43,596 bases of DNA from a virus. This document shows positions 22,421 through 42,703 of this stretch, in pieces (the first letter of the stretch is position 1; each line of letters opens with the position of its first letter). The translations under genes were made by a program, and so were the position numbers. The stretch is from the IMG/VR virus record IMGVR_UViG_3300018005_000023, positions 1 to 43,596 of that record; one strand, given 5' to 3'. Below the pieces are notes generated by a model, which worked only from the letters and a program-made list of their open reading frames with translations, was not told where the DNA came from and ran no database searches.

Positions 22421-22439
22421 GAACACAAGAAGGCACATC

Positions 22440-23603
22440 ATGAAAACTCTGATTCTCTTCGTTCTATTCGCTGCCGCGGCGCTAGGCCAAATCTGGTACC
22501 CAGGGGTGTTTATTGCGGGCACTCCTCCCGGCGGGATCGGGGCCGCGTGCACTGCAACCACATACGGGTATCTCAATTCATCTGGACAAGTCATTACCTG
22601 CCAGAGTAACGCGTGGACGGTCGTAACCGGCAGCGGTTCTATGACATGGCCCGGTGGGGCTGGTTTCGCATTGTATGGAGGCTCAAGTGCTTGGGGAACA
22701 AGTTTTGTCCCGGCCTCTACGGCGGTTCCATTTGGCAATGGGACTACGTTCCTTCAGGATGCGACCAACTTCAACTATGTGACCGGGACTCACGCCTTGA
22801 CCATCACCGGGCCGATGAGGGCAGCTAGCTTCGGGACAGGGGCTACGGCGCTTTCTGCGAGTGGTGGGGAACAGACTCTCGGCTCGGCTTGTCCCGGAAC
22901 CCAAACCTACGACACTTGGTTCTTCTCTTCCGCTAATCACATCCCGCAGTTCTGCCTTGGGAGCGGGACGACCGTGGTGGCAACAGATGTAGTCCCTCTC
23001 GCAGCTCCTGGTTCGGATCATAAATGGGTCTTCTACGTGGACAATACTGGGACGCAGCAACGCACACAGCCCGCGATGGGCGACATTAGCGGAACGCTTG
23101 GGTTGGCGGCAGGCGGAACCAATGTCGATCTGTCCTCTGCCGGCGGGACGGTGAATACGAACGGTACTCAGCTTCTCCACGACAACGCCTCCCATGTGAT
23201 TTCCTCATCTGCTCTGATTACTCAAGACATCCCAACCGCTCATGTGACGCGCACGGTCGTTTTCACTGATATCGCTCCGGTAGTTGGGGATGACGGGCTA
23301 ATCACCGTCCTGAATCCGGCAACAGCAATCCACCTAACCAAAGTGAGTTGCGGTCAAACAGGAGCCACCTCGATTGTTGTCAATCTCGTTAAGGCAACCT
23401 ACTCTTTGCTGGGGACGGATATGACAGTAACGGCAGGCGACATCAACACAGTCACTACGAGCACTTTCCTGAATGGGAACTCTCAGTGCGGAGGCACAAC
23501 CTCCTGCGCGGTGGCTGCGCATGCGCCGGTTACGGTGCATATTGGGACGAATACGGGCACTGCAACAACCTTGGCGTGCAGTATTGATTACACGGTGGAC
23601 TAG
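22440..23603 (+). CDS. Fibre-like protein with signal peptide
   Basis: The product is 387 residues from the ATG at 22440 (the longer open frame starts in the preceding gene). 'MKTLILFVLFAAAALG' is a Sec leader, cleaved near Gly16-Gln17. The rest is beta-rich and repetitive like fibres ('GNGTTFLQDATNFNYVTGTH', 'ALTITGPMRAASFGTG', 'HASHV'-type segments), ending in a Cys-containing domain ('VSCGQTGATS', 'QCGGTTSCAVAAH'). It probably forms a surface or fibre component. The pattern of paired cysteines fits an oxidising compartment. No specific family recognised. Confidence 0.7.
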   Translation: MKTLILFVLFAAAALGQIWYPGVFIAGTPPGGIGAACTATTYGYLNSSGQVITCQSNAWTVVTGSGSMTWPGGAGFALYGGSSAWGTSFVPASTAVPFGNGTTFLQDATNFNYVTGTHALTITGPMRAASFGTGATALSASGGEQTLGSACPGTQTYDTWFFSSANHIPQFCLGSGTTVVATDVVPLAAPGSDHKWVFYVDNTGTQQRTQPAMGDISGTLGLAAGGTNVDLSSAGGTVNTNGTQLLHDNASHVISSSALITQDIPTAHVTRTVVFTDIAPVVGDDGLITVLNPATAIHLTKVSCGQTGATSIVVNLVKATYSLLGTDMTVTAGDINTVTTSTFLNGNSQCGGTTSCAVAAHAPVTVHIGTNTGTATTLACSIDYTVD

Positions 23604-23604
23604 C

Positions 23605-24705
23605 ATGAAACGGCTTCTCTTCTTTCTGGCGCTTTGTCTCCCGGCGTTCGGGGCATACGCGAACCATGTCCAGATCACCGTCGCTCATGGCATGGTGTCG
23701 GGCGGTTCGGATTTGACCGACAAGGCTGTTGGCATTAAGGCCTGCGGGGATCAATTCAAAAGCGGGGGCCACATCCAGCACAGCGCTGTGTTCAATGGTC
23801 AGATAGTCCCCGCAGATTTTGTATACTCACCAAATTCGGACGGGACTTCGCCCTACAAATACGAGCATGTTTACTGGGATCAGGCCGGAGGCTGTGTCTA
23901 CTCGTGGGTTAAAAACCCAACCCTATCCCACACAAACGATTGGGTATTCTATGCAGCCTACAACGACGCCTCTGTGACAACTTACCAGGGTGGTAGCGTG
24001 GGGGATGTTTGGGCCGCAACGTATGTGGCAGTTTATCACTTTGCACCCAAGGGCGACGGATCCGTTTCACTTGTGGATTCTACTAGTCACGGTAATACCT
24101 GGACAAACAGCGGCGGAGTCGAAGCCGCCGGGCCTATGGGCGGAGCTGCAAGTTTTGATACGAGTTCGTACATGTCTGTTGCCGGAACCGGGCTAAGCCT
24201 GCACTATGCAAACATGACGGTGGAGGCTTGGGCTAACTCCACCACACAAGGAAACAACATAGTAGACAAGTGGGGCGGGACATACAACTACGCCCTCACT
24301 CTCAACACCGCCGGACATCCTTGGTGGGTTACTGCAGAAGACGGGACACCTTACATACAAACTGGAACCGCTACACTTTCTCCTTCTTCGACCCTTCACC
24401 AGATTGATGGTGTGAAAGCCGGTGGCGGCCAAGCGCTTTACGTGGATGGGGCTTCAGATTCTACTCTTGGTTGCGGCAGTGGAACAGTAGATACGAGCTC
24501 GGATGCGGCATATATCGGCCAGTGGAACGGGGGAACCGGCTCTGCCGGAGTTGTTGCTGAAATGCGGTTCATCTCCACCAATCTCAGCGCCGGGGAGATC
24601 GCGACCAACTATAACAACCTTGCCAATTACGCAACATATGTGACACAGGGCGCCGAGCAGGGCGGTGGCGGCGGAGCAAGGCACAAAGTTGTCATATCGA
24701 ACTAA
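23605..24705 (+). CDS. DUF2341-LamG protein with signal peptide
   Basis: The 366-residue protein starts at the ATG 23605. 'MKRLLFFLALCLPAFGAYA' is a Sec leader. Residues about 20-135 match the DUF2341 pattern ('HVQITVAHGMVSGGSDL', 'VFNGQIVPADFVYSP', 'DWVFYAAYNDASVTTYQGGS'), and about 140-350 a LamG/concanavalin-like lectin domain ('VYHFAPKGDGSVSLVDST', 'ANMTVEAWANSTT', 'GEIATNYNNLA'). A Gly-rich tail closes it. It is clearly paralogous to the first ~345 residues of the next protein. A carbohydrate-binding role is likely for LamG but not proven. Confidence 0.78.
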   Translation: MKRLLFFLALCLPAFGAYANHVQITVAHGMVSGGSDLTDKAVGIKACGDQFKSGGHIQHSAVFNGQIVPADFVYSPNSDGTSPYKYEHVYWDQAGGCVYSWVKNPTLSHTNDWVFYAAYNDASVTTYQGGSVGDVWAATYVAVYHFAPKGDGSVSLVDSTSHGNTWTNSGGVEAAGPMGGAASFDTSSYMSVAGTGLSLHYANMTVEAWANSTTQGNNIVDKWGGTYNYALTLNTAGHPWWVTAEDGTPYIQTGTATLSPSSTLHQIDGVKAGGGQALYVDGASDSTLGCGSGTVDTSSDAAYIGQWNGGTGSAGVVAEMRFISTNLSAGEIATNYNNLANYATYVTQGAEQGGGGGARHKVVISN

Positions 24706-24709
24706 AACC

Positions 24710-27700
24710 GTGAAGAAATTTCTTCTACTTCTCGCCATACTCTCTAGCCCGGTGTGGGCCTCTAGCTTCGGCTATTACCGCCAGATTACAATCGCGCACG
24801 GGATGGTCAGTGGCGGAAGCTCTCTAACCAATCACACGGTCTGCTTCCAGTTGTCCAATGCGGATTTCAAGAGCGTGGAGAACGGCGGAAAGATCGGAGC
24901 GAGCGTTGTCTTCAACGGGGCAACCGTTCCTGCCGATCTAACATTCTCTCCCAACTCCAGCGGGACCAGCTCGTACAGTTTTGAGCTTGCCGCCTGGGAC
25001 GCCACAAATGGCAAAGTGAATGCCTGTGTTCTGAATCCTAATCTGTCGAACTCATCTGATTGGATATTCTACATTCTGTACGGCAACCCAGGGATTACAA
25101 GCTACCAGGGCGGTTCCGTGGGCGCGGCCTGGGACAGTTACTATGCAGCCGTATTCCATCTCGGGGGGATTAGCTCTCTCTCCATCGTGGACTCTACATC
25201 CAATGGGAATGTCGTGACCAATTCCGGTGGGGTCAGCTTGACGACCGGCCTGAACGGTGGGGCTGCTTCATTCGTAGCCGCATCCAGCCAATATCTTGCC
25301 GGGAGCGCTGGCGGCTCACTCAACATCACCGGCACAGCCATCACCATCGAGGCACTGGAGAACATTACAAGCGGCAGTTCTGAAATCGTGGCGAAATGGG
25401 ACCCGGCGTGGCAGTACATGTTCGGCGGCAACCCAACGGGCATGATTACAGGCAATGAATCAGTGGGGGTGGATTCTCTTGCCGGAGCTACAACGCTCAC
25501 AGCCGCCACATGGTATCACATCGCGGGCGTGCAGCAGAATTGCGCGACCTATGTGTATGTCAACGGCACACAGGATGGGTCGAATGGCTCGTGTGAGAAT
25601 TTGGTGTCTACTTCCAGTCTGCTATCCATCGGCGCGCGACCCGGCAGCGGTTACTTAAACGGAAAGTTGCAGGAAGTCAGGATTTCCAACACCAACCGTT
25701 CTGCCGCTTGGATTGCCACTACCAGCAACGAACTCCTTAGCATGGGGAGCTACTTAACAGTCGGCTCCCAGCAGGTCGGGACATCTCCGGTTGTCGGAAG
25801 CATCAGCCCGGCTTCGACGGCAGCAGGTGGCGCGCAGTTCACGCTCACGGTTAATGGAACAGCCTTTAGTGCGGATGCTACGGTGTATTGGAACGCGACG
25901 GCGCTTGCTACAACCTATATCGGGTCTACACAACTGACAGCCACGGTGACGGCGGATTTAATTGCGAGTGGTGGGACGGCTGGTATCACAGTCCAGGAGA
26001 CAGCGGGCACGTCCAGCCCAGCAGTGACGTTTACGATTGTCGGCCCAGCGATCACTAGCTTTAGCCCAACTTCAGCGTCGGCCGGCGGCGCGCAATTCAC
26101 CCTGACCGTGAATGGCACTTCTTTTGTTTCTGGGGATGTGGTGAAGTGGGGGTCCACTTCGCTTACCACGAGCTACGTGGGCACAACACAACTCACCGCG
26201 GTAGTGACCGCTGGTCTTATCGCCTCGCCCACAACTGCCAGTATCACGGTGACAGGCTCGACGGGGGCATCCGCTGCCAGCAACTTCTCGGTGTACGCCC
26301 CGACGCTCTCAAGCATCAGTCCGACAACAGCTAGCGCCGGAGGATCGCAGTTCACGCTCACTGTGAACGGCGCTAACTTCGTGCCCGGCGCCACGGTTTA
26401 CTGGGATGCCACCTCCCTTTCGACGACGTATGTGGGTTCCACCCAACTGACGGCAACCGTGACCTCCGGGCTTATCACCTCCTACGGGATGCACACCATC
26501 ACCGTGCAAGACTCGGGTGGGACGACATCTGGCCTAACGATTGCTGTAGGGCCTAGTGGCCCAACGATGCTGATGACCTCAACCCAGATCGCCGCGATGA
26601 AGTCTCGCGCAGCATCGAACAGCGCGGCTTGGCAAGCATTTCGGAATCCTGGGGGCGGAGCGCATGGTTGCGATTGGGCGGTCCAGTACACTCCCGGCAC
26701 GCCCGACGGGTTGCCGCCGATCTATGCCGCAATGGAAGCCGGCCCTGATGGCCGAGGCAACGGCTTAGGCGGGTATATGTGGGTTGGCTCGAATACCGAC
26801 TACTTCGAAGGTGGCGATGCCTACACGATGGCGTACAACGTCGGGGTCTGCTACCTGACCCTAAAAGACGGCGACGTTACACCCTCCGGCTGGAGCTACA
26901 CCTGGAACGGAGTCTCCCTCACACCGCAGCAGTATGGCATCCTAGCTGGGATGCAGGCTGTCAAGCTGCTGAACAAGTTCACGCCGCCGTTCGCGTGGTT
27001 CACACCAGCCTCTCCACCCACCGATTGGCACGGGCTAACCTCCCGTCCTGTGGGTGGTCTTGGGATTGGCCCAGCCAACAGAAACAATACTTGGAATTTC
27101 AATATCTGGGGGAGTGTAGACTCTTATGCCCCGCTTTCGTTGACATCGGCGCAAACCAACTCCGGATCGGCTGTTCTCTATTTCTCGGGGACCAGCGGAA
27201 GCGCCTCCAACACCGACAACTTCACCGTCGGAGACTATGCCGTTGGAACGAACATCCCCGCCGGGACGAAGGTGCAAAGCAAGGTCGCAGGCGTGAGCGT
27301 CACCTTGGATCACAATGTCATTGGTAACGTCCTTTCGGGAGCAGCTATTACCGATGTTGCTGTGACTTCATGCCCCGTTGGCCAAGGGCAACTCTTCGCT
27401 GGTATCGCTCTCGGCCAGGACTTGGCCAGCCATTCGGCGCTGACATTCACTGGGATTGTGGGGCCACTCGCTACGGCTCTTAATGGGGTCACCGTTTACG
27501 TCGATGCAGATCGAAGCGCCGACTATTACGGCTTCCCACTTGATTCAGACGCCGCCGGCACGCCATTCTGCATCGTTCCCAATCAGGGCGTGACCTACAA
27601 CAATGGTAGCCCGGCTTGGGCCGTAGGCAGCGGGCAGAACTATAATTGGGAGCCCGACCACGACAACGGCTTCCCTGACCGCAATTTCATGCCAGGGATG

Positions 27701-30700
27701 GCTCTGCTATACGACTGGCTGAGGCCCCTCTTGGGGTATTCCCCGGCTGGAGCGTTGAATTACTTGGCGGCGCAGGAACCGGCTGGAGTCAAAGCACTCT
27801 TCACATCGGGAGGAACGGCTTGGGATGCCAGCACGAACCCCTGGATCGACTCGACGGTGACGGCTGCCGGGACTTATCCACAGGCTGATCCTAGCGGCTT
27901 TACCACCCTTCGCGCACAAGTCTTGGACTCGATGGACGGCTGGACGAAAGAGCAGTTGGTCGATTACTACCGGGGCTCTAATGGCGGGGGCAACTACGGG
28001 GATCTTGGAACCTATAACCAGACAGGCAGCAACTACCATTGGGGTCATTATGCAGGGCTGGGGTTAGTTGGGATCGCGGCCTATTACGATGATCCTCGCG
28101 GGCAGGTCTGGTACAACTACTGGCGCAATCAGATGCACTTGGCGGTCGATCAGCCCTTCTCTGCTCACTGGCTCGGCGCTGATGGCAACATGATGGACAG
28201 CTTCAACTACGCCGGGCTGTCCTGGTACAACATCGCGCTGACGCTGATCTCGAACTACACCGCCCTCGGAGACGACCTCATCAACAATTCCACGCAGCCG
28301 TTTTCGTGGATGGCCGGGCTGGAGTACTTCCGCCACAACCTGGAACCGAACATGCAGTCAATGCTCCAGCGTGGGTCGGTGTACAACTACACCGGGGCTG
28401 CCCCATCCTGCGTAAACTGTTCTGGCCCGAACTTCATCATGCAGTACTTAGCCGACCTGACCAACAACCCACTCAAGAATCAGTACAGGTGGTTCAACCA
28501 GCAGCTCATGACCCAGTTCAGTATCACCCCGGACTTTGTATTCTGGGACCCGAACGGAACGCAGACGAACTGGTCTAGCGAGACAACCGTTCTGGGGAAC
28601 ATGGCGAATCCGGCGGGCGGCTACGGTCACGTCTACATGCGGAGTGACTGGACTAGCAGCGCGGCCTACCTGAGTTTCCGGGCTGGCCCCCCGGTCTTCG
28701 ATATTGGCAACGGGCACGATGAGTATGACCACGCTGGGTCGATCATGCTCCAACGGGGGTCAAACACGCTTCTCTCGCATCCCGCAGCAGAGTGTATCCG
28801 TAATTTCCCTGCGAGTTCTGCTGGCGCCGGGGCGGCTATGCTGACGAATGCTCAGAATTGCGCTAGCCAGAAGAATGCAACGGATTTCTCTTGGGGCGGC
28901 GGGATCTACTCCTTGATGTTGAGCCCCGGTAACCCCAGCACGACAGCCGGTGTGGATTCAGTCAGCCTAACCACAAATGCCGCGACAGCAAGTGGGGCCG
29001 TATTGCACTTTGCCTCGACGGCTGGGGTGGTCCCCGGAATGGTGGCCCTCGGGACAAACATCCCGATTGGAAGTTCTTCTGAGTATGCTGCATTTGATAC
29101 TCCCAATTCTTTCGTGCTAGCTGTCACATCCACGACTGTCACTATTGACCAGAGCGTGACTAGCACGGGTGTTGCTAACGGGGCAACGGTTATCTTCGCT
29201 TGGGGCGGAACTCCGTGGCAGAGCAACCGCTGGGCGCAGTTTACCAACTCAACCTATATAGCTCCTGGTATTGCGGAACCCCCCGTGAGCACGGGGCCGG
29301 ATACTCCATACACGCCAGGAATGGCTTACAGCGTTACGCCTGGATCGGCTACGATCACGCTGACCGGGGGGCAAACCCTGAGCAATGGCGAGATCGCGGA
29401 GTTTAGTTGGGCAACGGGAGGTACAGCCCCCACATATTATCTGTCTGGAAGTTCTGGGCCAACGGCCAGTCTGGTGAGAGGAGTGCAATACGCCGTCATC
29501 AACTGGAACGCGGGGGCCGGAACTTTCGGCATTGTGGCAGCCCCGCAATATGGCACGGGCATCCCCACAACGGGGACGGCACTGGTCATTGCTAGCGCTG
29601 GCACGAGCACCCAGTGGCTCGTTGCAGGCACACCTTTTGCGTCAGCTAACCCGGCGCGGATTGATCTGCTAGAGAACACCTCGAACTATGCTTATGCCCG
29701 CGGTGTGGGGCTGGAGGCGCTGTATGCCGACTCCTACAGCAGCTTTGCTGAGCCACAATACACCAGCGTCCTGGGCTATCAGCGCGAGGTGTTGTATCTG
29801 CGTCCCAAGGTGTTCCTGGTCTACGACCGGACGCGGAATCCGCACTACAACCAACGAGCCGTCACAGCGGCATCACTGGTGGATGCGGACGGCAATGGAA
29901 ACCCTGTTCGCGTCGTCGCGGCGAACCATGCGTTCCACTCGGGGATGCAAGTCAAACTGACGGGTTTCGCCAACAGCACGGTCAACAACAACACCTACAC
30001 GATCACTGCCTTAGACAGCAACCAGTTTGCCCTCAACGGGCTGACAACCCCGATCAGCGCGCCTCTTACGGGTGGCACGGCCACCGGGAATGTCTGGGGG
30101 CATCAGGTGATCCCCTGGCACACAGGCCCGAAGCCGGTTGAGGTGACGACCGGCGGCCAAGTTACGGCCGGGATGCGGCAGTGGTACGTTGAGATGCCGG
30201 AAGTGAGCATCGCCAGCATCGCGAATACAACGCCGGTCACGGTGACTACCTCGGCGCCGCATTACCTCAACACCAACTTCTCGGTGAACATTGCTGGGGC
30301 GACGGGCGCCTGCGCCAGCCTCAATGGCAACTGGATGGTGACGGTGCCCAACACGGGCACGGCCACCGACCTGACCACGATGACGCTGAACAACTCGACA
30401 GCGGTGGGGGCCTGCGGCGCTGCCGGCACGATTCAGAAGTTCAACGGAGCCATCACGACAATCAAGCCCGCAACGCCGCCGGCAATCCTCCGCGACCTGA
30501 TGTACGGCGTGGGACAGATTGTGGGCGGCGGGATCGTCTATGAACTCCAGATTCACGACAACCGCGACTGCACGACAAATGCAACGTGGTGCCAGACCGC
30601 CGGCGCACCGGTTGAGGATTCACAGAATTGGCTTACGGCGCTAGATGCCAGCCTCAGCGCATCGGATACGGCAACTCTAACTCCGCTGACGGCCACTCAT

Positions 30701-31039
30701 GCTGACATGGTGCAGGTTGGCACTGACACGGTTGCCGGATTCCAAAACTCGCAGATTGGTTCGGGCAACTGTTCCAACAACACCTGCACGCCGCCTGCTC
30801 CCGTTCTACCAATCACTTATACTTTTACGCAGGGGGGAGCAACGGTGAGCCACTACTTGGCCGGGCTGACGCCAAGCACGACCTACTACGTCACCGTTTC
30901 CGGTGGGGATGTAACCGTCGCTGCCACTGGTTCCTCTGGTGCAGTAACTTCGAGCGCGAACGGGGTTCTCGCTTTTTCTGGCAGCGGGCAAACCGCATCT
31001 TCAACATTCAATGGTGTATTCAAGGGAAGTTGGCAATAA
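24710..31039 (+). CDS. Giant exported multidomain protein with heparinase II/III-like lyase region
   Basis: The 2109-residue product starts at a GTG (24710), chosen because it opens a Sec leader ('VKKFLLLLAILSSPVWA'). Order: DUF2341 (about 20-140), LamG (145-345), three IPT/TIG repeats (about 359-612), then from about 618 a lyase-like region opening with 'TSTQIAAMKSRAASNSAA'. That region contains a helical-toroid-like part ('AHWLGADGNMMDSFNYAGLS', around 1150-1170) and a beta-sandwich with 'HVYMRSDW' and 'HDEYDHAGSIMLQ' (His1336, Asp1340, His1341), as in heparinase II/III-type polysaccharide lyases. Two recurrent ~65-residue modules and two FCCH-like repeats (nt 29885-30100, 30205-30445) interrupt it; the end is FnIII-like. 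Export plus glycan-cleaving role is inferred. No Shine-Dalgarno. Confidence 0.72.
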   Translation: MKKFLLLLAILSSPVWASSFGYYRQITIAHGMVSGGSSLTNHTVCFQLSNADFKSVENGGKIGASVVFNGATVPADLTFSPNSSGTSSYSFELAAWDATNGKVNACVLNPNLSNSSDWIFYILYGNPGITSYQGGSVGAAWDSYYAAVFHLGGISSLSIVDSTSNGNVVTNSGGVSLTTGLNGGAASFVAASSQYLAGSAGGSLNITGTAITIEALENITSGSSEIVAKWDPAWQYMFGGNPTGMITGNESVGVDSLAGATTLTAATWYHIAGVQQNCATYVYVNGTQDGSNGSCENLVSTSSLLSIGARPGSGYLNGKLQEVRISNTNRSAAWIATTSNELLSMGSYLTVGSQQVGTSPVVGSISPASTAAGGAQFTLTVNGTAFSADATVYWNATALATTYIGSTQLTATVTADLIASGGTAGITVQETAGTSSPAVTFTIVGPAITSFSPTSASAGGAQFTLTVNGTSFVSGDVVKWGSTSLTTSYVGTTQLTAVVTAGLIASPTTASITVTGSTGASAASNFSVYAPTLSSISPTTASAGGSQFTLTVNGANFVPGATVYWDATSLSTTYVGSTQLTATVTSGLITSYGMHTITVQDSGGTTSGLTIAVGPSGPTMLMTSTQIAAMKSRAASNSAAWQAFRNPGGGAHGCDWAVQYTPGTPDGLPPIYAAMEAGPDGRGNGLGGYMWVGSNTDYFEGGDAYTMAYNVGVCYLTLKDGDVTPSGWSYTWNGVSLTPQQYGILAGMQAVKLLNKFTPPFAWFTPASPPTDWHGLTSRPVGGLGIGPANRNNTWNFNIWGSVDSYAPLSLTSAQTNSGSAVLYFSGTSGSASNTDNFTVGDYAVGTNIPAGTKVQSKVAGVSVTLDHNVIGNVLSGAAITDVAVTSCPVGQGQLFAGIALGQDLASHSALTFTGIVGPLATALNGVTVYVDADRSADYYGFPLDSDAAGTPFCIVPNQGVTYNNGSPAWAVGSGQNYNWEPDHDNGFPDRNFMPGMALLYDWLRPLLGYSPAGALNYLAAQEPAGVKALFTSGGTAWDASTNPWIDSTVTAAGTYPQADPSGFTTLRAQVLDSMDGWTKEQLVDYYRGSNGGGNYGDLGTYNQTGSNYHWGHYAGLGLVGIAAYYDDPRGQVWYNYWRNQMHLAVDQPFSAHWLGADGNMMDSFNYAGLSWYNIALTLISNYTALGDDLINNSTQPFSWMAGLEYFRHNLEPNMQSMLQRGSVYNYTGAAPSCVNCSGPNFIMQYLADLTNNPLKNQYRWFNQQLMTQFSITPDFVFWDPNGTQTNWSSETTVLGNMANPAGGYGHVYMRSDWTSSAAYLSFRAGPPVFDIGNGHDEYDHAGSIMLQRGSNTLLSHPAAECIRNFPASSAGAGAAMLTNAQNCASQKNATDFSWGGGIYSLMLSPGNPSTTAGVDSVSLTTNAATASGAVLHFASTAGVVPGMVALGTNIPIGSSSEYAAFDTPNSFVLAVTSTTVTIDQSVTSTGVANGATVIFAWGGTPWQSNRWAQFTNSTYIAPGIAEPPVSTGPDTPYTPGMAYSVTPGSATITLTGGQTLSNGEIAEFSWATGGTAPTYYLSGSSGPTASLVRGVQYAVINWNAGAGTFGIVAAPQYGTGIPTTGTALVIASAGTSTQWLVAGTPFASANPARIDLLENTSNYAYARGVGLEALYADSYSSFAEPQYTSVLGYQREVLYLRPKVFLVYDRTRNPHYNQRAVTAASLVDADGNGNPVRVVAANHAFHSGMQVKLTGFANSTVNNNTYTITALDSNQFALNGLTTPISAPLTGGTATGNVWGHQVIPWHTGPKPVEVTTGGQVTAGMRQWYVEMPEVSIASIANTTPVTVTTSAPHYLNTNFSVNIAGATGACASLNGNWMVTVPNTGTATDLTTMTLNNSTAVGACGAAGTIQKFNGAITTIKPATPPAILRDLMYGVGQIVGGGIVYELQIHDNRDCTTNATWCQTAGAPVEDSQNWLTALDASLSASDTATLTPLTATHADMVQVGTDTVAGFQNSQIGSGNCSNNTCTPPAPVLPITYTFTQGGATVSHYLAGLTPSTTYYVTVSGGDVTVAATGSSGAVTSSANGVLAFSGSGQTASSTFNGVFKGSWQ
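25786..26550 (+). repeat. Three tandem IPT/TIG-domain repeats
   Basis: Three consecutive ~85-residue repeats each begin with 'SPxSxxAGGxQFTLTVNG' and continue with 'YxGxTQLTAxVT'. They form an Ig-like stalk between the lectin and lyase parts. DNA identity between copies is partial. Confidence 0.85.
27140..27350 (+). repeat. Recurrent beta module, copy 1
   Basis: Within the 24710-31039 gene, this ~65-residue segment has the pattern S-G-x-x-L-x-F-x-S-(T)-x-G...G-T-N-I-P-x-G-x-x-V...V-T-L-D-x-x-V. It is the most divergent of three copies in this window. Confidence 0.6.
28970..29200 (+). repeat. Recurrent beta module, copy 2
   Basis: Same module in the same gene: 'TTNAATASGAVLHFAST', then 'GTNIPIGSS', then 'TTVTIDQSVTSTGV'. 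It inserts into the lyase beta-sandwich and closely matches copy 3 in the next gene at protein level. Confidence 0.7.
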
Positions 31040-35987: not shown

Positions 35988-36281
35988 TCATAGTTCTACA
36001 CGGTAAAACCGTTCTCCTCTAGCCGCCGCAGCGGCGTACTCTTGAACCATCTGCCAGTAGCTCCACTTGCGAAGTTCTGGGATTCTCTCGGAGTTTCGAA
36101 AGATGAGATAGGCGATCATGGGGTCCACGCCAATAGGGAAAGGTTCCTTACACCTGAATGCCATACCGAATGCCGTCCTGGCTTCGGATTCAGAAAGGAT
36201 TAAGTCGGATTCTCTAATCACTCTCACAACTTCTGGTATCAGTTGCTTTGTGATCTGAGCGTCTCTGATTACTTCACACAT
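35988..36281 (-). CDS. Hypothetical protein, last gene of the leftward operon
   Basis: This 97-residue protein has a helical start ('ITKQLIPEVVRVIRESDLIL') and an aromatic-rich end ('ELRKWSYWQMVQEYAAAAAR'). It overlaps the preceding gene by eight bases and has AAGGAG about 12 bases upstream of its ATG. No family is recognised; it is a real member of the operon by spacing and ribosome site. Confidence 0.65.
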   Translation of the reverse strand: MCEVIRDAQITKQLIPEVVRVIRESDLILSESEARTAFGMAFRCKEPFPIGVDPMIAYLIFRNSERIPELRKWSYWQMVQEYAAAAARGERFYRVEL

Positions 36282-37008
36282 ATCTACAACAACTCCTTAG
36301 CGAACAATTCTGGCATCGCCAATACGCGGGGTCGGCAGGCGGCAGGCGTCCGGCCTCGATGCACCGCGCCATCACGCAAACGCGCTCCTGAATTGCCGCC
36401 CACTTCCCGCCGTCGAATTCGACAATTTGCCGGTCCACCACCATCGGGTCGCTGTCAATCAAGTAGTCCACCACCACCGGCTTAGCCGATATGACGGCCT
36501 GGACGACGGCTCCCATGTCGTATTGCGCCTCGCCGTTGGCCGGCCGCTGCTGGCGCACGCGGATGGTGCGAATCTGGGCGTTCTCGACAATCTCGAATTG
36601 CCCGCTAAGGCAGTGACCGCGGATGTACTCCGAAAACGGCTCCTGCAGGCGGGCAGGATGAATCAGGCGAGCGACCACCGCCCGCCAGAGCTGCAGCAGC
36701 GCCCCGGCATCCCGCGCCGCCTTCTCGTAGGCCGTTCTTTGGCCTCTAGCGGCCTCCTGGGGCGTGTAGGCGATGTCCTGGGTGATCTGAGCGTCTACCG
36801 TCTTCCAAACACGCTGGCGGGCCTCCTGAGCCTCAAGAATGGCCCCTGTATCAATCTTAGCCTGCAATTCTTCGAGAACTAGCGCGCGCACGGCCCGCGA
36901 AACGATCTGACGGGTTGTCGGCGGCATGGGCACCCCTTGGAGGTGGTGCAACTCGTACAGAGCCGGGCAGCGGGAGAAGTGCAAGAGTTCGGCGACGGTG
37001 CAGTTCAA
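36274..37008 (-). CDS. Cas4/RecB-like PD-(D/E)XK protein with Fe-S cysteines, catalytic residues unclear
   Basis: The 244-residue product uses a TTG start (37008) that overlaps the previous stop and follows GGAGGGAAGAGGA. N-terminal 'LLHFSRCPALYELHHLQG' matches the start of Cas4/AddB/RecB-type nucleases, with Cys14 as the first cluster ligand. The C-terminus 'YWRCQNCSLRSCCRY' supplies Cys232, Cys235 and Cys240/241, as in the [4Fe-4S] clamp. But the usual His, Asp and Glu-x-Lys are missing or altered: 'GQFEIVE' stands where G-x-x-D is expected and 'VVVDYLIDSD' where D-Y-K is expected. It may be an inactive DNA-binding relative or a divergent nuclease. Confidence 0.55.
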   Translation of the reverse strand: MNCTVAELLHFSRCPALYELHHLQGVPMPPTTRQIVSRAVRALVLEELQAKIDTGAILEAQEARQRVWKTVDAQITQDIAYTPQEAARGQRTAYEKAARDAGALLQLWRAVVARLIHPARLQEPFSEYIRGHCLSGQFEIVENAQIRTIRVRQQRPANGEAQYDMGAVVQAVISAKPVVVDYLIDSDPMVVDRQIVEFDGGKWAAIQERVCVMARCIEAGRLPPADPAYWRCQNCSLRSCCRYV

Positions 37009-37310
37009 TCCTCTTCCCTCCCGGTCAAGTATGTGACCAGCAATTCCTCAATTGCGTGATCGGTCAGCCCACTGGCCCGCAGGCGTTCTCGAATCGCGTC
37101 GGCATCCTCTCCTTCGAGGTCTTGAATCGCGGTGGCGTATTCGCCGATGGCTTCCGGGCCGAGCGGCTTGGCCGGACGTGGCGGCGGTGCTGGAATCTCC
37201 GTCGCGCGAGCGAGGCTCACCGCGATGGACTCCAAAGCCTTGCGAGTGAGCGTCAGTTCTTCGAGCAGACGCCGGGTGGCGTCAGGATTGAGCAGGTCGG
37301 TGAGCTTCAT
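37005..37310 (-). CDS. Hypothetical small protein with Pro-rich linker
   Basis: The product is 101 residues from the ATG at 37310, which overlaps the preceding stop (ATGA); the longer frame to 37394 lies inside that gene. An N-terminal helical part ('ATRRLLEELTLTRKALESIA') is joined by a Pro-rich linker ('IPAPPPRPAKPLGP') to an acidic helical end ('AIQDLEGEDADAIRERL'). Function unknown. Confidence 0.6.
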   Translation of the reverse strand: MKLTDLLNPDATRRLLEELTLTRKALESIAVSLARATEIPAPPPRPAKPLGPEAIGEYATAIQDLEGEDADAIRERLRASGLTDHAIEELLVTYLTGREED

Positions 37311-37540
37311 ACTGGTATCTGCCCCACAGCTACTCGAACGTCGCCTGCGTGTGTGAAAACGACCGCACAGACGCAGCCCTGCGCGGTGAGCCAATCCATC
37401 AGATGATCGACGGCTTGCCTGTCAACCCATACGTCGCTGAAAACCATCACGTATTTGCTGAACATGTCGAATTTAAGAACCTCGTGCGCCTTTAGAAACG
37501 CAGCGAGTTCGTCGATTGTAATGTGTTTATTTCTTTTCAT
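37307..37540 (-). CDS. Hypothetical small protein
   Basis: The product is 77 residues; its start lies inside the 3' end of the glycosyltransferase gene (14-base overlap), and its stop overlaps the next start. 'MKRNKHITIDELAAFLKAHE' then beta strands 'DMFSKYVMVFSD' and 'QGCVCAVVFTHAGDVRVAVG' suggest a small alpha-beta domain. Real by coupling; no family recognised. Confidence 0.6.
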   Translation of the reverse strand: MKRNKHITIDELAAFLKAHEVLKFDMFSKYVMVFSDVWVDRQAVDHLMDWLTAQGCVCAVVFTHAGDVRVAVGQIPV

Positions 37541-38312
37541 TCACTGCCTCCGTAACCCAAGGATCGACATCGTTCTCATACCCCGGTCGCAGTCGATCCC
37601 CGATGAAATAGTTCTTGCCGTGCGTGCCGTCGCTGGCAACCAGACCCTTGGCCCAAGCGTCCCAATGATCCGGGGACTCGTAGACTCCGCCCTCGCGCCC
37701 GATGTTGAGCGTGCGGCTGAGGACCGGCACGAGGCACTTCAAAGCGTGCCGCTGGATCGTCAGACCGCAGGACCAGTCCCAACCCACCCCGCCCGATGGC
37801 GTCGGTGGTTTGGCGTTCCATTCGCCCCGGAATTTGCCCTCCCAAGCCCAGTCCGTGAATGCCCAACCCCACGGGCAAAAGCGCATGAGTTCATTGACTT
37901 GCAGAGGATGGCTTTGGTCTTTCGTCGCACCATGAAGTAGCAGGCAGGCGTACTGATCCCGCGTCGGCAAGTCGTAGAACCAGTCGCACAACTCCAGTGC
38001 GTCGGGCGAAGGCACGATGTCGTCCTCGAAGACCACATTGAAGGTGGATTCCAGCACCCCGAAAAACAGCTTGTCGTAGACCATCATAGGGTGGTAATCC
38101 ACACCCGCGCGGCCCATGTTCTCCCAGACGCGATAGTGCGGGAACTCTTCGGCAAACCAGTGCGCCACCTCCCACGTCGGACGCTCGTAAGGCGCGTTGT
38201 CGAGCGAGACGACCACGTGGTAATTGCGGATGCCGCGGCAGACCGCCAGCGCCTCAAGGACGCGCTTCAGGTAGGCTGGCCGGTTGTAGGCGATTACACT
38301 GATGGTTTTCAT
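37527..38312 (-). CDS. GT-A glycosyltransferase, GlcNAc-transferase I-like
   Basis: The product is 261 residues from the ATG at 38312, overlapping the preceding stop (ATGA); the frame to 38387 lies inside the neighbour. It begins with a Rossmann-type start ('MKTISVIAYNRPAYLKRVLE'), shows 'HVVVSLDNAP', and has an acidic metal-binding motif 'NVVFEDDIVPSPDAL' (Glu96-Asp97-Asp98), the pattern of GT13/GNT-I-like enzymes. Later aromatic segments ('WGWAFTDWAWEGKF', 'ESPDHWDAW') fit an acceptor-site lid. It transfers a sugar from a nucleotide donor; donor and acceptor are unknown. Part of the glycan cassette. Confidence 0.75.
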   Translation of the reverse strand: MKTISVIAYNRPAYLKRVLEALAVCRGIRNYHVVVSLDNAPYERPTWEVAHWFAEEFPHYRVWENMGRAGVDYHPMMVYDKLFFGVLESTFNVVFEDDIVPSPDALELCDWFYDLPTRDQYACLLLHGATKDQSHPLQVNELMRFCPWGWAFTDWAWEGKFRGEWNAKPPTPSGGVGWDWSCGLTIQRHALKCLVPVLSRTLNIGREGGVYESPDHWDAWAKGLVASDGTHGKNYFIGDRLRPGYENDVDPWVTEAVNEKK

Positions 38313-38971
38313 TTCTTGAACTCGTCCCTGTGCCGCCGCGCCAGCACTTCTTCCTTGCGGTCCCAGGCTTCCTGCCGGTTGCTCCAATTGTACGTCGCGT
38401 CGAGTTCGCCGATGCCTGCTGACGGGTGCCGATGCTCGAATTGGATATCGAAAGCGCGGATCACCACGCCGTCCTGATGGGAATAGCTGGTGAAGTCATC
38501 GTCGCTGCCGACTGAGATGTAGTCGGGGTAGAACAATTCGCCGTTGGGCATTCCGCCGCGTCCTGGCCGCTCGTAGTAAGCCCGCGTCAGGATAGGGTGG
38601 ATGATGAGGCCGGGGCAGTGGTTCGCGCCGACCCAGATGACGTATTCGCCCTTCACGTCGGGGATGACTTCCTTGAGCCGCGTGCCCCAATGTTCGCAGG
38701 GGGACCAGTCGTCGGCTATGCAAACCAGCACGTCGCCCTTAGCCTCGCGGGCGGCGAGGTTCCACGCATCGACGGTGCAGGGGCGTCCACGGTTGACGAG
38801 AAGTCTGAAATACCACGGTTTTATCTGCGGGGCTTTGTCAATGTCCTCGGAATCGACAACGAGCAAGTATTCGACTTCTGTCATGTTGTCGCATCCCATC
38901 ATCCAGGCACACCAAGCATCCTTCCATCCCTCCGGCAGCCGCTTGGTCGGGTGCAGCAGGGAGAACGTCAT
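38309..38971 (-). CDS. GT2-like glycosyltransferase
   Basis: This 220-residue protein overlaps both neighbours by four bases. It has a family 2-like core: 'YLLVVDSED' in the first strand region, 'DAWNLAAREAKGDVLVCIAD' followed by 'DWSP' (Ala86-Asp87-Asp88 metal motif), then 'ISVGSDDDFTSYSHQDG', where the acidic run could supply the catalytic base. The protein is shorter than typical GT2 enzymes, lacking a large C-terminal part. Likely sugar transferase acting with the other transferases in the cassette. Confidence 0.75.
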   Translation of the reverse strand: MTFSLLHPTKRLPEGWKDAWCAWMMGCDNMTEVEYLLVVDSEDIDKAPQIKPWYFRLLVNRGRPCTVDAWNLAAREAKGDVLVCIADDWSPCEHWGTRLKEVIPDVKGEYVIWVGANHCPGLIIHPILTRAYYERPGRGGMPNGELFYPDYISVGSDDDFTSYSHQDGVVIRAFDIQFEHRHPSAGIGELDATYNWSNRQEAWDRKEEVLARRHRDEFKK

Positions 38972-39201
38972 CCCAGAACCTCCTTAAGCAATGTGCCAAT
39001 ATCCCGATACCATGGGCCAGCATTGCAGAGCACGTCAAGAAACTGGCGCTTCAACTCATGTTCTTCGGATTCTCGATACGAGAACTTGGCGATGGTCTTG
39101 CGCGAAATGGGTCTTCGTTGTGCGCGAGAACAAACGAACGCCGAGAAGGGTACACTCCTGCCGCAAGCAAGCTCCCAGTCAATTTCTTCCTTCCAAGTCA
39201 T
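38968..39201 (-). CDS. Hypothetical small protein in the glycan cassette
   Basis: The product is 77 residues, with AGGAG upstream of the ATG at 39201 and a four-base overlap with the next gene. It is charged and helical ('RESEEHELKRQFLDVLC') with 'GRSVPFSAFVCSRAQ' in front. Its place between the methyltransferase and GT2 genes suggests an accessory, but no function can be assigned. Confidence 0.6.
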   Translation of the reverse strand: MTWKEEIDWELACGRSVPFSAFVCSRAQRRPISRKTIAKFSYRESEEHELKRQFLDVLCNAGPWYRDIGTLLKEVLG

Positions 39202-39202
39202 G

Positions 39203-39820
39203 TCACTCCTTGATGAGCAGCCGCGCCGTGTAGCCGCATTCGATCAGTGGTGACGTGATCCGGTTCTCGGCTCGGTATTCGTTCACTGCCTTGCGTGCGC
39301 CCTGCCAGTGGCCATAATCGTCGATGATGACGATGCCGCCGCGTGAGACACAAGGGTAGAGATGCTGCAATTCGTGCTTGGTCGAGGCGTACCAGTCAGT
39401 GTCGAGGTGGAGCAAGGCAATCTGCTGCGGAGCCAGGGCGGGAATGGTTTCCTCAACTCGACCGACAACTAAGTGCCAATCCCAATAGTTTACCAAACCT
39501 AAGACTTTCAGAACCTCCGACGCCGTAGCGGCGCAATCGCCCTCACGCCCCTCGTGCCCCATGAAGTCCACGTCCTCGAAGCCGGGCTTGGTCATCCCAG
39601 CGAACGTGTCGAATAGGTAGATGTCGCGTACTTCCTTGCCCTGAAGCGCCAAGATCATCGCCAGCGCCGCGCCACCTCGCCACACGCCGCACTCTACAAA
39701 CGCGCCGGGAACCCCAAAGGCCGTGACGTTTATGACGCTCTGCACCAGCCCGAAAATCCGCTCGCCGTCGAGCATCGTGTGCGGCTGCACCGTGTCGATA
39801 ATCTCAGTTATCCCCATCAT
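39203..39820 (-). CDS. TylF/macrocin O-methyltransferase-like enzyme
   Basis: The product is 205 residues from the first of two ATGs (39820), which overlaps the preceding stop (ATGA) with GGAG upstream; the long frame to 40579 crosses the next gene and is rejected. Class I SAM fold: 'GAFVECGVWRGGAALAM' (motif I, about residues 40-56), 'IYLFDTFAGMTKP' and 'IALLHLDTDWYASTKHELQ' (metal-binding Asp pair), 'GGIVIIDDYGHWQGARKAV' as in TylF-family enzymes. Members methylate sugar hydroxyls in natural products and surface glycans. Here it likely methylates a sugar made or transferred by the adjacent genes. Confidence 0.85.
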   Translation of the reverse strand: MMGITEIIDTVQPHTMLDGERIFGLVQSVINVTAFGVPGAFVECGVWRGGAALAMILALQGKEVRDIYLFDTFAGMTKPGFEDVDFMGHEGREGDCAATASEVLKVLGLVNYWDWHLVVGRVEETIPALAPQQIALLHLDTDWYASTKHELQHLYPCVSRGGIVIIDDYGHWQGARKAVNEYRAENRITSPLIECGYTARLLIKE

Positions 39821-40503
39821 CGCCAGATCTCCATGACTGTATCTTCCGTTGCCGGGATCTCGTCCACAATGAACGTCGGCGGGCGTGTGAGCGGCATCCA
39901 CATCCGATGCGCCAGAACCGATAGTACCGTCTGATCGTGGCGGTGGCCCAGCACGCGTGGATCGGGCGAAGCCTCGCCGTTGCCGTTGCTCCACGGGCCT
40001 TGAAAGGCTGTCCGCATAGCTGCCGATTGGACGAAGTGCTCCAGCAGCACTGAGGATTCCTTGAGCCGCAAGTCGAGGCCGAAAGACGTGGCTATGACCT
40101 GCGGAATCCCGAAAGCATCTTCGCGCGTGATGCCCAGCGCCGGCAGCGCCGAATCGCAGCACCACTGCCCGCAGTTGTAGGCCGGCAGGTCGCTCCGGCC
40201 TTGCGGCAGATTCTCGCTGAACCAGAAACCGTGGTTTTCGATGAAGTCCCACAGTGGCTCTAGCGAGCGGATGGGATAGATCGAAGAGTCCATCCACAGC
40301 AACACGTTGGCGCCTAAAGAGGCTTGCAGCAGGGCGTAGGCTTTGAATGCGTAGGGCACGTCTTCGTGCGCCGGGCTGGCGGGCGGGAGCTGATCGCGCC
40401 AGAAGCAGCGCAACTCCGTCGATTCTACGGCGTTCAGTTGCCGCTGCAGCCGGTCCTGGTGCTCGACAAACCGTCCCGTCGCTACGCTGACAATCGCTCT
40501 CAT
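39817..40503 (-). CDS. Putative sugar transferase (GT-A-like)
   Basis: The product is 228 residues from the ATG at 40503, preceded by AGGAGGAAGG; the extension to 40821 overlaps the radical SAM gene and is rejected. 'YAFKAYALLQASLGANVLLW' followed by 'MDSSIYPIRSLEPLWDF' resembles the donor-binding section of glycosyltransferase folds where 'LWLDaD' is usual, here Asp-Ser-Ser. Later 'GHRHDQTVLSVLAHRM' fits the H-x-x-D-Q motif of these enzymes ('..rhDQs.l..l'). The loss of a clear DxD lowers certainty. It belongs with the neighbouring transferases. Confidence 0.6.
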   Translation of the reverse strand: MRAIVSVATGRFVEHQDRLQRQLNAVESTELRCFWRDQLPPASPAHEDVPYAFKAYALLQASLGANVLLWMDSSIYPIRSLEPLWDFIENHGFWFSENLPQGRSDLPAYNCGQWCCDSALPALGITREDAFGIPQVIATSFGLDLRLKESSVLLEHFVQSAAMRTAFQGPWSNGNGEASPDPRVLGHRHDQTVLSVLAHRMWMPLTRPPTFIVDEIPATEDTVMEIWR

Positions 40504-40511
40504 CCTTCCTC

Positions 40512-41111
40512 CTATGGGGAAAACCAGCAATCCTTGCACGGCAGCGGCACCGCTTGCACTTTCTTCTGCCATCCTGCACATGGCTCTAGGCTCTCTGCTC
40601 CTGGAATTCCCGGCCCGACGCAGCACGGGAACAGCCGCCCATGGGCGTGTGCGACCGTTTCCGACAGCCCACGATGGCACGGCTGGCCGGAGCCGCGCCG
40701 GTCGAGTGGCGTGAACTCTTGGCAATAATGAATGATGCGCCCGCCGTAGTGCCCTTGCAGCCACTCTAACTCGGCGTGATTTTCGCCGTAGTCCGAGAAG
40801 TAGATTTCGTCGAAGTTGCACAGTTCTCTCTCGTACTGGCGCACCTTGAAACCATTAGTTGAAAGCGTCAACAACTTGCAGCCGAATAAATCCCGCAAGA
40901 CCCAAGCCAGGAACTCGAATGATGGGTGCATCGTCGGCTCCCCGCCGGTAAGATTGAGCCGGTAGATACCATACAGATGCTCCGCTGCCTGCACGAAATA
41001 CTCCCACGGATGATGCACGACAGGGCGGCGGTGCATCCCGGCGCAGCAGTTGTCGCAATGCCGGTTGCAGGCGGTCGTAATGTCCATCGTCACGCAGTTG
41101 ATTTCACGCAT
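40512..41111 (-). CDS. Radical SAM protein with C-terminal cysteine-rich region
   Basis: This 199-residue protein has the canonical cluster motif Cys15-x3-Cys19-x2-Cys22 ('MDITTACNRHCDNC'), then 'LNLTGGEPTMHP' (GGEP at 56-59, SAM-binding). After about residue 150 cysteines recur ('CCVGPGIPG', 'PCAGW', 'PCKDCWF'), like a short SPASM/twitch-type auxiliary cluster site. It is compact compared with typical ~300-350-residue members. The start overlaps the preceding methyltransferase by 22 bases. Possible roles are sugar epimerisation, dehydration or peptide modification; the cassette points to a glycan precursor. Confidence 0.85.
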   Translation of the reverse strand: MREINCVTMDITTACNRHCDNCCAGMHRRPVVHHPWEYFVQAAEHLYGIYRLNLTGGEPTMHPSFEFLAWVLRDLFGCKLLTLSTNGFKVRQYERELCNFDEIYFSDYGENHAELEWLQGHYGGRIIHYCQEFTPLDRRGSGQPCHRGLSETVAHAHGRLFPCCVGPGIPGAESLEPCAGWQKKVQAVPLPCKDCWFSP

Positions 41112-41755
41112 TCAAACTCCGGTAACGCGAACGGCTCCAAGCAGCACACCGCAACCCGATGCGTTGTCTCGTAAACCTCTCCCAGCCAGGTATGCGCCCT
41201 TAGCCAGTTGTAGGCTTCCTGCGGCCCAGCGTAGATCAGATCGTGCAGCAGAATCACTCCGCCCCACACGACGCGTGAATCGGCATGAATCGCATCGTTC
41301 AGCGGCTGCGGCGGTTCGTGGTCGCCGTCAATGACTATACCGTTGAAAGTGGAGGTGTCCACGTCGAAGAACACGTCGGACGGCTTCGGGCACAGCCGCA
41401 CCTTGTCCGCGTGCCACAGCAAAGGGTGCGATAGGTTCTCGCAAGCGCGCGCGCGGAACTCCGGCACGGCGTACATCGGGTCAATCGCCCGCACCTCGCA
41501 GCCCGCCATTGCCAAGTACGCCGCTGTCCAGCCGGTCGCTCCGCCGATGTCGAGCCATGAGCCGCCGACTTTCTGCGCGACAGCGTACAGAATGGCAATC
41601 TCCTGCATCGTCCACGAGCCAGAGTTCTTGTGGATGCCAAACACGGGATCGTCGGCCTGCTTGTCGGCCCAATCGGACCCGACCAGCACCCCGCCGCTGT
41701 GCATCGGGCGCCACTCGTAATGCCGAAAGCAGCCCCGCAGATCAGGACAAGTCAC
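41090..41755 (-). CDS. Class I SAM-dependent methyltransferase
   Basis: The product is 221 residues from a GTG (41755) with AGGAG eight bases before. Motif I 'SWLDIGGATGWTAAYLA' (about 66-82), 'EVRAIDPMY' as motif II, 'FNGIVIDGDHEPPQPLNDA' as motif IV, and 'GGVILLHDLIYAGPQE' resemble Methyltransf_24-type enzymes associated with sugar or lipid-glycan methylation. It overlaps the radical SAM gene. The substrate is unknown; the setting suggests a second methylation step on the same glycan. Confidence 0.85.
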   Translation of the reverse strand: MTCPDLRGCFRHYEWRPMHSGGVLVGSDWADKQADDPVFGIHKNSGSWTMQEIAILYAVAQKVGGSWLDIGGATGWTAAYLAMAGCEVRAIDPMYAVPEFRARACENLSHPLLWHADKVRLCPKPSDVFFDVDTSTFNGIVIDGDHEPPQPLNDAIHADSRVVWGGVILLHDLIYAGPQEAYNWLRAHTWLGEVYETTHRVAVCCLEPFALPEFECVKSTA

Positions 41756-42005
41756 TGCTTTTCTCCTGCCATCCTAAATCTCTCAAAATTTCTGCTTGTT
41801 CCGCAGAAAGAGTGTCCCCCGGTTCTACTGTTCGCATGGCAGAACTGAAACCGCAGACAGCCACAAGGATTAAGTGGTGACATACAAAACACTCTAAAAC
41901 CATCGGCTTGCCAATTTCACGCTCATGCTCAATAAAGGGGCCGGCGCAAAGTGGGCATGTAAATACCGGCTCTGTCCCGATTGGCTTCTTATATTGGACG
42001 CTCAT
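41742..42005 (-). CDS. Small zinc-ribbon protein
   Basis: The product is 87 residues with two Cys pairs: 'FTCPLCAGPFIEHE' and 'LECFVCHHLILVAV', a four-cysteine zinc ribbon. A short acidic helix follows ('LSAEQAEILRDLGW'). It overlaps the next gene by 14 bases and the preceding one by four. It may bind DNA, RNA or a partner protein; it belongs to the operon but its task is unclear. Confidence 0.75.
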   Translation of the reverse strand: MSVQYKKPIGTEPVFTCPLCAGPFIEHEREIGKPMVLECFVCHHLILVAVCGFSSAMRTVEPGDTLSAEQAEILRDLGWQEKSSDLS

Positions 42006-42703
42006 CGCCCGTGCCTTGGCCCCTTCTCCCCGCCGACAATCGATACCCGCCCCGGTGCAGCCCGCATCGCCCCTTGCGGATCATCAACCGCGCTCTTGAT
42101 CGCCCGCTCCAGCGCCGGGTCTGTGTGCGACCCCGCCCAGCGCTGCTCCTCAATCTTGTATGTCGTATCGGCGTCTTCCGCACCCGTCGTCTCCAGCGCC
42201 TTGGTAACTTCCTGCTGCGTCAGCGGCGGCACGGGCGGCGGTGGCGGCGTGTCGGGGATAGTGACCTTGGGCGGCTCGACGGCAGGCTCCAAGCTCCCCG
42301 GCTTGGTGCGGACATCCACCAACTCGCCCGTGTTGGTTCGCACGGTTTCGATAGTGCCCATGCCGGCCAGCGTCCTGAGTTCTTGAGGGTCGGCCTCGCG
42401 CCCGTACAGCGGCGACTCCTCGACTAGTTCCAGCGCCGCAGCCTCGACCGGGGTGAAGTATTCCCCGTTGACTTCGTAGACCACCGCGCCATCCGGTACG
42501 TCGATTGGCGCTCCGCTACGGTCCACGCCCGCCGACCTGTAGGGGGTCAAGGCGACGCGCACCTCGTACTTGAGGAGGGGGAACCCCCGAACAATGTTGA
42601 CGGTATTGTCAAGGCTCATCGCTTCGGTCAGCCGTTGCAGCATGATCTGCTTCAACTCGCCGCCGTTCAGCGCGCGGTAGATCCTCTTGGTTTGGAACGC
42701 CAT
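42002..42703 (-). CDS. Hypothetical protein with Pro-rich middle
   Basis: This 233-residue protein has GGAAAG upstream of the ATG at 42703. N-terminal helix ('LKQIMLQRLTEAMSLDNTVN') is followed by strands ('KYEVRVALTPYRS', 'AVVYEVNGEYFTPVEAAALE'), a Pro-rich linker ('IPDTPPPPPVPPLTQQE') and a helical end. The first half resembles a compact alpha-beta domain found in accessory phage proteins, but I cannot name it. It overlaps the zinc-ribbon gene by four bases. Confidence 0.7.
   Translation of the reverse strand: MAFQTKRIYRALNGGELKQIMLQRLTEAMSLDNTVNIVRGFPLLKYEVRVALTPYRSAGVDRSGAPIDVPDGAVVYEVNGEYFTPVEAAALELVEESPLYGREADPQELRTLAGMGTIETVRTNTGELVDVRTKPGSLEPAVEPPKVTIPDTPPPPPVPPLTQQEVTKALETTGAEDADTTYKIEEQRWAGSHTDPALERAIKSAVDDPQGAMRAAPGRVSIVGGEKGPRHGR

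Follow-up and report, generated by a model that had tools for sequence, protein, structure and literature searches.

The window analysed here is the whole 43,596-nucleotide stretch of virus record IMGVR_UViG_3300018005_000023, in which the genes for terminase, portal, scaffold, major capsid protein (MCP) and tail all run rightward. Its single leftward operon, from about 43.6 down to 36.3 kb, contains a cassette at 37527-41755 that a sequence-only reading had described as a miniature pathway for making or capping a glycan. All seven reading frames of this cassette are present on the minus strand in the order claimed. The first encodes a class I methyltransferase of the Methyltransf_24 type (41090-41755; GTG start with AGGAG upstream; Pfam 1.4e-6, above the cut-off), and it is followed by a compact radical S-adenosylmethionine (SAM) enzyme (40512-41111; Pfam Radical_SAM 6.9e-9, above the cut-off), a probable GT-A-like glycosyltransferase (GT) whose assignment is indirect (39817-40503, hereafter the GT-like protein) and a TylF-type O-methyltransferase (39203-39820; Pfam TylF 4.4e-42, 144.6 bits against a cut-off of 23). 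Next come a small protein of 77 residues (38968-39201), which is an open frame only and for which family and homology searches found no homologue, a GT2-type glycosyltransferase (38309-38971; PHROG 14945, glycosyltransferase, 6.6e-5, with homologues scoring above the Glycos_transf_2 cut-off) and a GT13-like glycosyltransferase of the GNT-I/POMGNT1 type (37527-38312), which starts at the ATG at 38312 and not at the TTG at 38387. Matches in Pfam, PHROG and PDB and to homologues bear out the two methyltransferases, the radical SAM protein and two of the glycosyltransferases. Overlaps of 4 to 22 bases had been claimed for the whole run; these exist at four of the six junctions, and the other two are short gaps (in order: 22-base overlap, 8-base gap, 4-base overlap, 1-base gap and two 4-base overlaps).

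The third glycosyltransferase, which had been called likely, was reached through a chain of homologues, since the GT-like protein has no match in Pfam or PHROG and no credible one in PDB. A 53% identical homologue adjoins a radical SAM gene in viral contig L138. A profile made from these two sequences matches L139:1884-2666 (hhalign, 88%), which has a clear DAD motif and is directly followed by a radical SAM gene, and a profile of three sequences finds a domain of Pedobacter L081 (4e-21) that directly follows TylF in a polysaccharide operon. Along this chain, 39817-40503 likely encodes a glycosyltransferase. A search for the GT-like protein in 396 Acidobacteriota genomes returned chance-level matches only, and a single-sequence AlphaFold model of it was discarded together with a three-sequence model of the GT2 protein (predicted local distance difference test scores of 31-32). 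Assignment of the GNT-I-type protein is direct: residues 4-208 match human POMGNT1 in the PDB (1.1e-8), and the homologous domain in phage contig L132 lies above the Pfam GNT-I cut-off. Its EDD metal motif is invariant among the homologues compared. The residue aligned to the second Asp of the POMGNT1 WDWD motif, which we take to be the catalytic base, is Ser in the window and Asn in phage relatives, in a part where the alignment is weak. POMGNT1 extends O-mannose on proteins, and the known relatives of POMGNT1-type enzymes act on protein-linked glycans.

Most novel in the cassette is the compact radical SAM family, the C-terminus of which has four conserved cysteines. CX3CX2C, GGEP and the four C-terminal cysteines are invariant across six homologues (Cys 15, 19, 22, 145, 163, 192 and 195), and the C-terminal four may hold a twitch-like auxiliary cluster; the protein gave no Pfam SPASM match. 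By profile, the nearest solved enzymes are MoaA (1.5e-13), YydG (5e-11), PqqE and viperin, with a weaker match to cytosylglucuronate decarboxylase, a sugar-nucleoside enzyme. Full-length homologues lie within phage glycan cassettes in L138-L144. In L139 the gene is accompanied by an FkbM methyltransferase and then the head closure and neck genes (Hc1 and Neck1), in L140 the locus again has an FkbM methyltransferase and lies between terminase and portal, in L143 and L144 it comes after the MCP and a GT4, and near homologues are also carried by L141 and L142. In L118 a portal gene is directly followed by a more distant relative in the company of GT-like genes, TylF and two Methyltransf_24-like proteins. 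Glycosyltransferase or methyltransferase genes neighbour the radical SAM gene at nine of nine near or cassette-type loci and at none of 12 others, a count that is only indicative, as the seeds came partly from the same loci.

The operon exceeds the cassette in both directions and runs past the right end of the window. Upstream lie a conserved gene (42002-42703; 44-47% identity in relatives G006 and G008) and a small cysteine-containing open frame (41742-42005), which overlaps the Methyltransf_24-type gene by 14 bases. Of the three genes downstream, which reach 36274, one encodes 77 residues and overlaps its neighbours by 14 and 4 bases (37307-37540) and the next encodes a conserved 101-residue protein (37005-37310; 43-55% identity in G006 and G008); all four genes are on the minus strand. 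The last, at 36274-37008, encodes a Cas4-like PD-(D/E)XK protein (TIGR00372, 1.4e-6, below its cut-off) with about 40% identity in G006 and G008. There it lies on the late-gene strand and in the window on the cassette strand, so that a local inversion has occurred.

A 40.4-kb contig, G003, is 100% identical to both ends of the window and joins them through about 15 kb of sequence, so the genome is about 58.7 kb if circular, consistent with the 57-59 kb of its relatives. This contig encodes, on the cassette strand and 383 bp past the window's right end, a 411-residue protein with N-terminal tetratricopeptide repeats (TPR) and a C-terminal Glyco_transf_9 signature just under the Pfam cut-off (hereafter TPR-GT9). 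It opens the operon and is 47-53% identical to proteins of G006 and G008, whose MCPs are about 84% identical to that of the window and which also have TylF (33-39% identity). The conserved 42002-42703 and 37005-37310 genes bound a slot that in G008 contains nothing but TylF and a gene of 90 residues; in G006 it is empty, and TylF adjoins the TPR-GT9 gene. Gene calls in relatives came from a simple in-house caller, and the gene content can be relied on wherever it is backed by homology or a family match. These gene contents lead us to regard TPR-GT9 and TylF as a shared core and the other enzymes as variable cargo. The G+C content of the cassette (60.0%) matches that of the phage (59.3%), so that composition shows no sign of recent arrival from a different host, and promoter and terminator scans gave nothing above chance. 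The best match of the window terminase is to the Tunturiibacter phages Tunturi 1 and 2 (29% identity), which are podoviruses of Acidobacteriota (PMC11924767); the host of this soil phage is for this reason probably an acidobacterium.

The cargo recurs elsewhere. Scanning with a profile of the radical SAM enzyme identified L138, in which homologues of four cassette genes lie side by side in the order GT2 (45% identity), GT-like (53%), radical SAM (47%) and Methyltransf_24-type methyltransferase (45%). The sequence-only reading had suggested looking for the same gene order in other phages: the four genes do occur jointly, but in the reverse of their relative order in the window, and the small 77-residue gene is absent from L138. 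L138 comes from a distantly related phage (G426) whose MCP is only 32% identical. The cassette there is likewise convergent with the last late genes, and of the late genes compared in the flanking regions fetched, a single tail gene shows similarity, which is weak. That the cassette genes are more alike than the MCPs points to exchange of a module between phages. Judged by this recurrence of four genes at 45-53% identity in another phage, the grouping is more than chance. A further idea, tentative and rather doubtful, is that these four genes form a mobile module, swapped as a unit between distant phages, that makes a radically altered methylated sugar capping a virion glycan started by TPR-GT9. 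Scans of viral contigs for close relatives with the radical SAM, GNT-I and GT-like proteins singly, tblastn searches of annotated phages with the radical SAM, GT-like, GT2 and Methyltransf_24-type proteins, and plasmid searches gave no match.

Gene fusions add to this picture. GT2 and GNT-I are fused, in the order of the window, in L133 (433 residues) and L132 (783 residues), and the GT2 product matches the N-terminal domain of both fusions (3.6e-24 and 2.6e-17, respectively). Bacterial proteins, in turn, have halves that correspond to TylF and to the Methyltransf_24-type methyltransferase (homology up to 4.5e-14 for the latter), as in L112 (TylF 2.1e-40, Methyltransf_24 9.2e-28). Because of these two kinds of fusion and the co-occurrence of the methyltransferase, radical SAM, GT-like and GT2 genes in L138, we consider that the enzymes act together. 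The L132 protein (L132:7362-9713), on a phage contig, is a triple fusion of GT2, GNT-I and a GT9-like part judged by eye, and upstream of it is a gene with a terminase-matching counterpart in L133. The bacterial fusion, of about 480-500 residues, recurs in genomes L112, L115, L107, L102 and L103.

A glycan-making or glycan-capping pathway is well supported. Among the three uses proposed for it in the sequence-only reading (remodelling of host surface sugar, decoration of the virion, modification of phage DNA), our comparisons best support the second, and phage-encoded glycosylation and methylation of virion proteins is the reading that we favour, with moderate confidence. Related cassettes are placed among virion genes: in addition to the loci in L118, L139, L140 and L143 described above, they lie upstream of the MCP (L117), between portal or MCP and the head-tail adaptor (L121-L124) and beside terminase or portal (L131-L133). 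Clusters of about eight or more glycan-enzyme genes (GT9-like, methyltransferases, TylF, GT-like) were seen between portal or MCP and the head-tail adaptor at L121:3234-12588 and L123:3804-11347.

The relatives of TylF point the same way, for its matches in named phages are mycobacteriophages without exception. By tblastn it matches Che8 gp108 (2e-5), which adjoins two further glycosyltransferase genes, and gp15 of the Omegavirus Courthouse (4e-4), which sits directly after the capsid gene with glycosyltransferases next; profile-profile probability is 97%. The window has this arrangement too, its TylF gene adjoining at least two glycosyltransferase genes in its position between the GT-like and the GT2/GNT-I genes. 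Virion glycosylation in phages has been shown in a few mycobacteriophages, where it shields particles from antibodies. Virion proteins of Che8, Corndog and Myrna are glycosylated, and Che8 gp110 and Corndog gp38 are essential (PMC12363180); in Corndog, the O-methyltransferase gp35, the glycosyltransferases gp36 and gp37 and the N-acetylglucosamine (GlcNAc)-transferase gp38 lie between portal and protease (PMC4351075; mycobacteriophage virion glycosylation is likewise covered by PMC11600133).

In the first use proposed, the enzymes would modify a host surface polysaccharide (an O-antigen or capsule precursor) at the cytoplasmic face and so block adsorption of later phages (superinfection exclusion). 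All cassette proteins are predicted to be soluble, and their hydropathy over 19 residues peaks at 1.51 (in TylF), short of the 1.6 taken to mark a transmembrane segment. Unlike in Gtr systems, the cassette has no flippase (GtrA), bactoprenol-linked glycosyltransferase (GtrB) or polytopic Gtr membrane protein, and Gtr-type serotype conversion was set aside for lack of any cassette protein with a membrane segment. No sugar-nucleotide synthesis genes were found, related cassettes recur within head and connector modules, and the TPR-GT9 and POMGNT1-type enzymes point to protein acceptors. On the other hand, TylF and a relative of the GT-like protein adjoin in the Pedobacter L081 polysaccharide operon, near Wzm/Wzt-like transporter genes, and the phage has a pectate-lyase-like tailspike gene and hence meets surface polysaccharide. 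Modification of the host surface is, on balance, a serious competitor that we hold to be rather unlikely.

Several observations weigh against virion glycosylation, some of which favour the host surface. Relatives of single cassette components lie inside the head module, but the cassette of the window does not: it is on the strand opposite the virion genes and convergent with the last late genes. Profiles of GT2 and GNT-I compared by hhalign with Che8 gp109 and gp110 and Courthouse gp16, gp17 and gp21 gave probabilities of at most 14%; as the glycosyltransferases are not detectably homologous, we do not file the cassette as an orthologous locus. The TPR-GT9 protein is of the GT9-like class and not GT41 (OGT). 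Bacterial relatives of both TylF and the GT-like protein lie in surface-polysaccharide operons. Finally, glycosyltransferase clusters of pelagiphages, some with radical SAM genes (in pelagimyophages as cassettes in the GT-rich host-recognition cluster), are read by their authors as modifiers of host O-antigen (PMC7029224), and so are those of cyanophages (PMC7824862).

The same features bear on three further explanations. The TPR architecture is able to recognise proteins and all the enzymes are predicted soluble, which would also suit glycosylation of a cytoplasmic host protein, such as a defence or translation factor, as a means of taking over the cell or resisting defence. Inactivation would not, however, call for as many as six or more enzymes that build a methylated glycan, and related cassettes adjoin virion genes, not early genes, so that we consider this improbable. 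Very improbable, in our view, is the synthesis of a small glycosylated or methylated metabolite, or of a radical-SAM-modified peptide, as toxin or signal. A radical SAM enzyme of the MoaA/YydG/PqqE type beside a 77-residue gene would fit it, and TylF is named after an antibiotic methyltransferase, but that small gene has no homologue and is missing from L138 and from relatives, and the operon has no transporter, peptidase or scaffold enzyme. The least probable is hypermodification of phage DNA, with sugars placed onto hydroxymethylated bases, which was among the uses first proposed and for which the DNA-glycosylating enzymes of T4 offer a precedent. Scanning against Pfam found no DNA-base modifier among 47 further gene products from the window and the adjoining 15 kb, and the gene calls there include no thymidylate-synthase-like hydroxymethylase, TET/JBP or base-activating gene; DNA hypermodification was set aside.

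For glycosylation of the virion we propose a scheme in which we infer the acceptor, the division of labour, each of the reactions and the biological benefit. Through its TPR repeats, TPR-GT9 would recognise a virion protein, to which it would attach the first sugar, and the GT2, GT-like and GNT-I/POMGNT1-like enzymes would lengthen the glycan from nucleotide sugars of the host. TylF and the Methyltransf_24-type enzyme would O-methylate it; the substrate of the radical SAM enzyme would be a sugar, changed by dehydrogenation, epimerisation or deoxygenation, or less likely an acceptor residue. Capsid or tail proteins would in the end bear a rare, methylated terminal glycan, built in the cytoplasm. 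If the doubtful idea of a mobile four-gene module is true, this would be, to our knowledge, the first modification of a phage particle to require radical SAM chemistry, and these radical SAM enzymes would make up a new family devoted to phage glycans. A largely unrelated enzyme set of this kind, with radical SAM chemistry and a TPR-GT9, in phages that probably infect soil bacteria would suggest that glycosylation of particles is widespread and has evolved more than once, and the defined operon offers a test of roles for such glycans outside animal immunity, in soil adsorption, receptor masking and particle stability.

Two other regions deserve mention. In the tail module (20396-31039), signal-peptide-like N-termini are found at 20396, 22440 and 23605, with an internal one near the start of a 2124-residue open reading frame at 24665; these proteins carry pectate-lyase-like and laminin-G-like domains, and similar genes occur in relative G010 (L033). 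It is unusual for a tail region to encode exported phage proteins. The sequence-only reading had such exported lyases act on the glycan of the cassette, but we found nothing that links the pectate-lyase-like or lectin-like proteins of the opposite strand to its product. The 15-kb stretch outside the window (L032, G003:22000-40433) and the window together contain helix-turn-helix and DDE/IS1-transposase-like matches and a RecT gene, the transposase-like genes not being placed exactly within that combined sequence.

Compared with known systems, the cassette shares with the pelagimyophage host-recognition cluster a variable, GT-rich region with radical SAM, for which the authors propose O-antigen modification; the likeness is one of description (PMC7029224). 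To POMGNT1/GNT-I (GT13) it is linked by the match over about 205 residues and the EDD motif, although the window protein is half as long and lacks a stem or membrane anchor. Microbacterium phage Magritte has a GNT-I-type glycosyltransferase 28% identical to it (gp8), in a cluster (gp5-gp8) beside another glycosyltransferase near terminase and portal; that cluster differs in its UDP-glucose dehydrogenase and Gly_transf_sug-like glycosyltransferase, with no TylF or radical SAM gene in the stretch seen. TPR-GT9 shares with OGT-type enzymes the fusion of TPR repeats to a glycosyltransferase, but its catalytic part is GT9-like, not GT41. The virion loci of mycobacteriophages (Corndog gp35-gp38, Che8 gp108-gp110 and, by similarity, Courthouse gp15-gp21) have in common with the cassette a TylF-type O-methyltransferase beside several glycosyltransferases, an N-acetylglucosaminyltransferase-like enzyme and soluble enzymes, but they lie in or near the virion module, whereas the operon of the window runs opposite to the virion genes. 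Decoration of the particle by a phage-encoded O-methyltransferase and glycosyltransferases is therefore already known, and it is the enzyme set that differs here: glycosyltransferases unrelated in sequence to those of Che8 and Courthouse, a second methyltransferase, a compact radical SAM family and TPR-GT9, in a phage whose host is probably an acidobacterium.

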